Shown in pieces: positions 33,934-35,058 of a stretch of 35,823 bases of DNA. Below the pieces are notes generated by a model. It worked only from the letters and a program-made list of their open reading frames with translations. It was not told the DNA's origin and made no database searches. The stretch's first letter is position 1. Every line of letters starts with the position of its first letter. The DNA is from Thermoanaerobaculia bacterium. GTDB lineage: Bacteria > Acidobacteriota > Thermoanaerobaculia > JALWYX01. The stretch lies in NCBI GenBank assembly GCA_027078415.1, contig JALWYX010000026.1, positions 1-35,823 of the forward strand, written 5' to 3'. The position numbers were made by a program, and so were the translations under genes.

Positions 33934-35058
33934 TCAGCGTTTCTTAAGATCTTCTAAAATATCTACGGCAGATATAGCAGGAAGTACATTGGCACTTTTA
34001 AGTTTTTCTTTAAAGTCACGCACCCCACCTTCTTGAGACAACTTCACAACTTTCTTTATTTTCAAGTCTTTTTCTTTTTCCTTCTCTTTTATCCTGTTCA
34101 CAGACTTGATAGCAGATAACAACGTAGATTTTGCACTTCCAACTTCGATATCTGTAATACCCTGAGATCTATTTATAGAGTGTGTAATATAAATTAAATC
34201 TATCTCTCGTTCCAAAGAAATAACCGCTTTTTCGACTTCAAAAATCGATTTTTTAAGACCAATTATCTTATATCTATAAGTATCTATTAGAAGTTTTTGA
34301 AAGGCTATTTCCTCTTTAAATTCAGATATTTTCTTAGCCATCTCGAATGCCAAGCGTTTATTTCCTACTTCAAGAGCTTTAGTAGCACACTCTTCATGTT
34401 CTGCGACAAGTCTTTGAATTTCTCTTACCTTTTCTCTAGTTGACTTCTCTTCAGCGGTTATGGTTGTAAGCGTTTCCTTAATTCTAGCCAAAAACTTTCT
34501 AGCATTTCGCAACTCCTGCTCAAGAGTAATAACCTCCTGATTATCAACATCATCTGCTAGATATGAAACAATTTTTTTCACACCAACTGTTGTAGCTGAA
34601 GTACCTTCATCAAAAAAATTAACAGCTTTATCATCTTTAGAATCTAAAAGTTGAGCCAAACTCTCTACAGTACTTAATGCACTTTCACTTAGTGTCTCTA
34701 TTTTTTGTACTATAACATCTCTATTTTTTAAAACTTCATCCGCTTTGATAGTCCCAAACATTACGTACCATTCACACAATTTGCCAAAAGATAAAGGAAA
34801 AATAACATTTAAACGCATCATAACTTCTAAGATCTGCTCTTTTTCTTTTTTACTCAGTTCATCCCCTTTAAATAGATAGGTGTAATACAAAATTTGACCG
34901 TGAGCATACACCAGATAAATTGGAAACTCCTCCCTACCTTTGATTGTTACTTTTAAAAAACTTCTTCCTTCTTTACTGTATAAAACTGTTAAGAATTTAG
35001 ATCCATATTCGGTTAATAATCCGTCCAAATCTCCAGACAACTGTCCCAATATATCCAC
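33934..35058 (-). CDS. YjfI-like (DUF2170) domain fused to a YjfJ-like PspA/IM30 domain
   Basis: 374 residues, no signal peptide or membrane segment. Residues 1-140 resemble the YjfI/DUF2170 family: a KVTIKGREEFPIYLVYAHGQ segment (36-55), LNVIFPLSFGKL (83-94) and WYVMFGTIKADEVL (97-110). Residues 155-330 are a charged coiled coil of PspA/IM30 type: VITLEQELRNARKFL (176-190), long heptad helices to about 290, then SAKSTLLSAIKSVNRIKEKE. The layout matches E. coli YjfJ (about 230 residues), whose gene neighbours yjfI. A membrane-stress or ESCRT-III-like membrane remodelling role is inferred from PspA relatives. It starts at GTG with GGAGG about 10 bases upstream. The two-domain call rests on remembered family patterns. 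Confidence 0.75.
   Translation of the reverse strand: MDILGQLSGDLDGLLTEYGSKFLTVLYSKEGRSFLKVTIKGREEFPIYLVYAHGQILYYTYLFKGDELSKKEKEQILEVMMRLNVIFPLSFGKLCEWYVMFGTIKADEVLKNRDVIVQKIETLSESALSTVESLAQLLDSKDDKAVNFFDEGTSATTVGVKKIVSYLADDVDNQEVITLEQELRNARKFLARIKETLTTITAEEKSTREKVREIQRLVAEHEECATKALEVGNKRLAFEMAKKISEFKEEIAFQKLLIDTYRYKIIGLKKSIFEVEKAVISLEREIDLIYITHSINRSQGITDIEVGSAKSTLLSAIKSVNRIKEKEKEKDLKIKKVVKLSQEGGVRDFKEKLKSANVLPAISAVDILEDLKKR

Follow-up and report, generated by a model that had tools for sequence, protein, structure and literature searches.

In the genome of a Thermoanaerobaculia bacterium (Acidobacteriota; assembly GCA_027078415.1) the DUF2170 (YjfI) domain and the PspA/IM30 (YjfJ) domain are joined in one polypeptide. 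The window analysed here is one whole contig (JALWYX010000026.1, 35,823 nt) of this 1.96-Mb assembly. The fused gene is a single uninterrupted open reading frame (ORF) on the minus strand at 33934–35058, stop codon included, which begins with GTG, has no internal stop and codes for 374 amino acids (aa). The adjacent pair of yjfI and yjfJ genes was already known; the single chain is so far unique in our sample. It supports the view that YjfI and YjfJ work as one complex, and is independent evidence of a direct partnership in one compartment. DUF2170 proteins have a crystal structure and no settled function. Furthermore, a single chain with a fixed ratio is a convenient object for the biochemistry of a little-studied branch of bacterial ESCRT-III proteins.

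Domains and predicted structure

Both domains exceed their Pfam cut-offs within the one ORF, as a preliminary description of this DNA had proposed for a single-chain DUF2170-PspA protein. The match to DUF2170 (PF09938) covers residues 18–136 (34651–35007, minus strand) with E=1.6e-14 and 54 bits against a gathering cut-off of 27. The match to PspA_IM30 (PF04012) covers residues 168–373 with E=4e-17 and 63 bits against a cut-off of 33.9, and its alignment extends over model positions 18–216 of 220; a search of the own genome placed the PspA half at 33937–34557, likewise on the minus strand. The motifs REEFPIYL, FPLSFGK, WYVMFGTI and LEQELRNARK, by which the gene had been recognized, are all present, and its coordinates had been given correctly. 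The DUF2170 residues P88, L89, Y98 and G102, invariant in 43 sequences, are retained, and the PspA half ends with the YjfJ-type C-terminal helix. By its position in a phylogenetic tree, described below, the PspA half can be assigned to the YjfJ subfamily.

The full-length fusion was modelled with AlphaFold2 from an alignment of 63 rows. The mean predicted local distance difference test score (pLDDT) was 78.5, and residues 141–168, with values below 50, part two ordered regions. Modelled alone, the N-terminal domain reached a pLDDT of 89.8 and showed the order alpha-beta3-alpha-beta2-alpha, which is that of the CesT/type-III-chaperone fold. Its best Foldseek match among solved structures was BacA of Pseudomonas aeruginosa, a relative of YjfI (PA14_16140, PDB 8q8o; E 1.6e-6, template modelling score 0.77), and type-III secretion chaperones (ExsC, SycN, SicP, CesT) and YbjN were matched further. 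The DUF2170 half is thus predicted to belong to the CesT/type-III-chaperone superfamily. For BacA as well as for type-III chaperones, a dimer binding an extended segment of the partner has been reported. With the full-length model, Foldseek found the filament structures of Vipp1 (8qbs and 8qbw, E 8e-4) and PspA (7abk, E 4e-3), with a large root-mean-square deviation as the long helices bend differently; by sequence, the PspA half matches solved Vipp1 weakly. These matches are in agreement with the predicted Vipp1/PspA, ESCRT-III-like fold of the C-terminal half, which the preliminary description had anticipated.

The junction of the two domains

An N-terminal helix alpha0 is usual in PspA/IM30 proteins and is not required by the PF04012 model. 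In split YjfJ proteins the N-terminus is a conserved amphipathic segment of this kind with the consensus MSIWSKLLTALRGGANEAGEAV. The fusion scores −52 bits with an alpha0 profile, which is within the range of shuffled sequence, whereas all 121 of 121 split YjfJ proteins score at least +11.6 bits in leave-one-out tests. No alpha0 motif was found at the junction in any reading frame, and the hydrophobic moment in the fusion is at most 0.40 compared to a mean of 0.50. The place of alpha0 is occupied by the linker SKDDKAVNFFDEGTSATTVG (residues 139–160, 34579–34644, minus strand), predicted to be disordered. In split pairs, this position holds the stop codon of YjfI, the start codon of YjfJ and the helix alpha0. 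The linker carries a coding signal in the reading frame, with codon log-odds of 11–13 per 20 codons and a peak across residues 131–170, whereas the other frames are around zero or negative and contain stops. A start codon with a Shine-Dalgarno sequence, from which a separate PspA could be made, was not found at the junction.

The two halves also differ from split pairs in their charge. The net charge of DUF2170 is 0 in the fusion compared to −12.7 ± 2.7 in split pairs (range −20 to −5), and that of the PspA half is +6 compared to −2.7 ± 2.0. Base composition is no explanation for this shift because acidity is just as strong in split pairs of low GC content. Simple read-through of the stop codon of a split pair was considered and rejected, since alpha0 is gone in every frame, a linker is present instead and the acidity of DUF2170 is lost. 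The joint loss of alpha0 and acidity suggests a binding site.

Distribution, origin and genomic context

We examined 120 further loci which encode the two domains on the same strand, composed of public-genome, plasmid, Escherichia coli and sampled-genome loci. None is a fusion. This comparison of fused and split forms had been suggested beforehand. DUF2170 precedes an adjacent PspA gene in all 120, and 49 of these pairs share one frame with at least one stop codon between the genes. Because the genes are adjacent, in constant order and in 49 cases in frame, few steps would be needed to join them. Eighty of the loci came from profile scans of public genomes and belong to Pseudomonadota wherever a lineage is named; a search of genome contigs with the fusion sequence alone detected no relative. 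Among 398 sampled Pseudomonadota genomes, 50 (about one in eight) carry DUF2170, in 51 copies. With one exception, which is split, the copies are located in open frames no longer than 291 aa. A 439-aa frame in genome G557 was rejected as a second fusion, as it holds DUF2170 at its C-terminal end and the PspA protein is encoded by an ORF of its own. In 369 genomes of Gammaproteobacteria, no match reaching across the two domains is free of stop codons. The sampling of genomes was even without being exhaustive, and many of the loci are close relatives of each other; therefore one fusion in about 120 loci is not to be read as a rate. Viral contigs and phage records yielded no match to the fusion; with E. 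coli YjfI as query, two Salmonella draft contigs were matched in the phage collection.

Within the host lineage DUF2170 was found in none of 148 other genomes of the class and in none of 395 others of the phylum, whereas 59 of 147 class genomes contain a PspA. Neither a second DUF2170 nor a second PspA_IM30 is present in the host genome. In a phylogenetic tree the PspA half appears inside the YjfJ clade of Pseudomonadota (support 100/99), apart from the class PspAs tested and from E. coli PspA. It is nearest to a subgroup of Thiomargarita, Beggiatoa, Methylococcales and marine gammaproteobacterial metagenome-assembled genomes (94/89), its exact position being unsure because of a long branch. 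The DUF2170 proteins of this subgroup are likewise among those most similar to that of the fusion.

Nevertheless, the host is not a member of the Pseudomonadota. The EF-G encoded on the same contig shows 64–69% identity to class relatives compared to 54–59% to Pseudomonadota; thus the contig belongs to the host class and is not a proteobacterial contaminant. Two side observations concern EF-G itself. The host has a second EF-G-like gene in the form of two adjacent ORFs (G000:C39:27344–29405), which are 33% and 54% identical to fusA and may represent a paralogue that is broken or split, and one in-frame TAA was seen within the EF-G match of L117, from the gammaproteobacterial genome G498. Since DUF2170 is missing from the rest of the phylum sampled and the PspA half falls within YjfJ, horizontal transfer from a gammaproteobacterium is likely and the simplest reading of the sequences. 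The codon usage of the fused gene is that of the host (0.173, compared to 0.138–0.233 across its conserved genes), therefore such a transfer would be old rather than recent.

The fused gene stands alone. Its flanks (33303–33933 and 35059 to about 35560) are without an ORF of note, as had been described; neither yjfKLMC nor pspBC nor the genes next to related loci were matched there, and the flanks show no significant similarity to the queries tried. DUF2491/DUF4178, DUF1190 and spermidine-related genes were not found in the flanks, pspB has no match in the window, and PspC and DUF350 were not detected in the host genome. Near the gene there is no sigma54-type site with fewer than three mismatches, so that the reported lack of pspBC and of a sigma54 element is substantiated. 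Hence, the gene belongs neither to a classical Psp system (pspF-ABC) nor to a yjfIJKLM/bac operon. A Shine-Dalgarno-like GGAGG (35069–35073, minus strand) is located 10 nt upstream of the GTG start. A candidate sigma70-type promoter, GTTACA-16-TATAAT (35089–35116, minus strand, 10 of 12 matches; TATAAT at 35094–35089), lies just upstream and is not above chance for this region. Rfam and tRNA scans of the window gave nothing. The nearest split relatives with context (L014, 4096–11654) are in a cluster with a spermidine-synthase-like gene, an RCK ion channel, DUF350 and an M50B-like peptidase; the DUF2170-PspA locus of Thiomargarita is without these neighbours.

Elsewhere in the window an 879-aa protein (1262–3901) combines DHH, DHHA1, CBS and polyA-polymerase/tRNA nucleotidyltransferase domains. 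From 9282 to 32563, genes for ribosomal proteins and translation form a long unbroken block, all in the same orientation. In it, a 107-aa ORF (29272–29595) directly follows fusA at the place of rpsJ, and no ORF of the size of tuf separates the two.

Interpretation and comparison with known systems

We consider it fairly probable that the fusion represents, in a single chain, the YjfI-YjfJ (BacA-BacB) complex of a chaperone and a PspA protein, a "Rosetta stone" which would work without alpha0. The N-terminal half with the CesT fold would then be cytoplasmic and correspond to a protein that other bacteria produce separately, immediately ahead of its PspA partner. The disordered linker of about 20 residues would tie it in cis and in a fixed 1:1 ratio to a PspA half which presumably still polymerises and contacts the membrane through the alpha1-3 hairpin and its basic C-terminal part. 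Located in the former place of a free alpha0, the CesT domain may control assembly or the choice of partners, whereas in split pairs the acidic DUF2170 protein may handle alpha0. The earlier suggestion that the YjfI part serves as a fixed domain for regulation or targeting appears reasonable in this respect. Of the previous interpretation the single chain, the fold and the solitary context were substantiated; the CesT fold, the loss of alpha0 and the apparently foreign origin of the gene in the host lineage had been missed. A more specific version would be that alpha0 was traded for a covalently bound chaperone domain, and that the loss of both alpha0 and acidity reveals that YjfI/BacA normally holds the alpha0 of its partner until membrane stress; this we regard as conceivable and rather doubtful.

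Published data bear on both sides of this explanation. The alpha1-3 hairpin is sufficient for membrane binding of IM30 (PMC12636044), and alpha0 of PspA is unfolded without a membrane, its binding driving curvature (PMC12358876). The same study shows alpha0 engaging the membrane in PspA rods, so that a bulky domain at the N-terminus could prevent rods from functioning normally at all. Furthermore, the fusion is present in one genome and one assembly only, and the collections contain no close relative. The long branch of the PspA half (1.88) could mean relaxed constraint, and the charge shift may be due in part to a more basic proteome of the host (the net charge of EF-G is −15 in the host compared to −32 in one gammaproteobacterium). 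One recent paper, using low-confidence models, put YjfI in the periplasm (PMC12492005). However, the sequence shows no apparent signal peptide, and the natural fusion to PspA speaks for a cytoplasmic YjfI in direct contact with YjfJ.

Three other explanations have to be weighed against a single-chain chaperone-PspA complex. The CesT domain might have ceased to be a chaperone and have replaced alpha0 as a recruiter, with the PspA polymer displaying many CesT domains for binding to the membrane or to a further protein. Its position in place of the missing alpha0, its well-predicted and retained fold and the lost acidity of the split type, which suggests a changed ligand, are consistent with such a targeting adaptor. 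However, a second partner is not known, genes similar to yjfK, yjfL, yjfM or yjfC are not adjacent and DUF350 is absent genome-wide, and we find this explanation unlikely. A real fusion which is largely non-functional, having lost alpha0 and its surface features by drift, would fit to the small genome (1.96 Mb compared to mostly 3–6 Mb in the class), the long branch, the wide gene-free flanks and the absent operon partners. It is improbable in view of the intact frame of 374 codons with host-typical codon usage, the four conserved DUF2170 residues, the retained YjfJ C-terminal helix and two domains above the Pfam cut-offs.

Even less credible is an artefact in which an indel from assembly or sequencing united two genes, for instance in the run of seven T in the linker (about 34600–34620). 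With one base less in this run DUF2170 would end at a TGA that overlaps with a start codon GTG in the PspA frame; the run is located at the junction, there is one assembly only and about 120 other loci are split. However, a run of seven T is short for a common indel error, and the codon signal of the printed frame is strongest just through the linker, where the other frames are low and contain stops. The split product would begin at this GTG without alpha0 and without a Shine-Dalgarno sequence. Thus, no normal YjfJ is hidden here, and an error would leave the loss of alpha0 unexplained.

Among known systems, E. coli YjfI and YjfJ have the two domains in the same order and are collinear with the fusion over its whole length. 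Their genes are neighbouring and separate, as had been stated, and lie in frame 18 nt apart. In E. coli there are two proteins from a six-gene cluster (yjfIJKLM-yjfC), whereas the fusion is one chain without operon and without alpha0. In P. aeruginosa, BacA, the best structural match of the N-terminal domain, and the PspA-like BacB are separate proteins of the bac operon with a proposed sigma54 promoter, and DUF2170 of the split type is acidic, unlike that of the fusion. An interaction of BacA and BacB has been predicted (0.981; PMC13092808). A strong interaction was also stated as unpublished in a study in which loss of BacA raised BacB 7.2-fold (PMC10948618). The CesT/Tir-PspA dyads described in mSystems in 2024 (PMC11237479) show a domain pairing like that of the fusion, but as gene neighbours. 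The excerpts of that article name tandem PspA, NlpC/P60 and PspAA as PspA fusions (<2% of homologues), with no DUF2170-PspA among them. Finally, with Vipp1/IM30 and PspA of the ESCRT-III superfamily the fusion shares the predicted fold of its C-terminal half, whereas it lacks their N-terminal alpha0 and has a 140-residue domain in its place.
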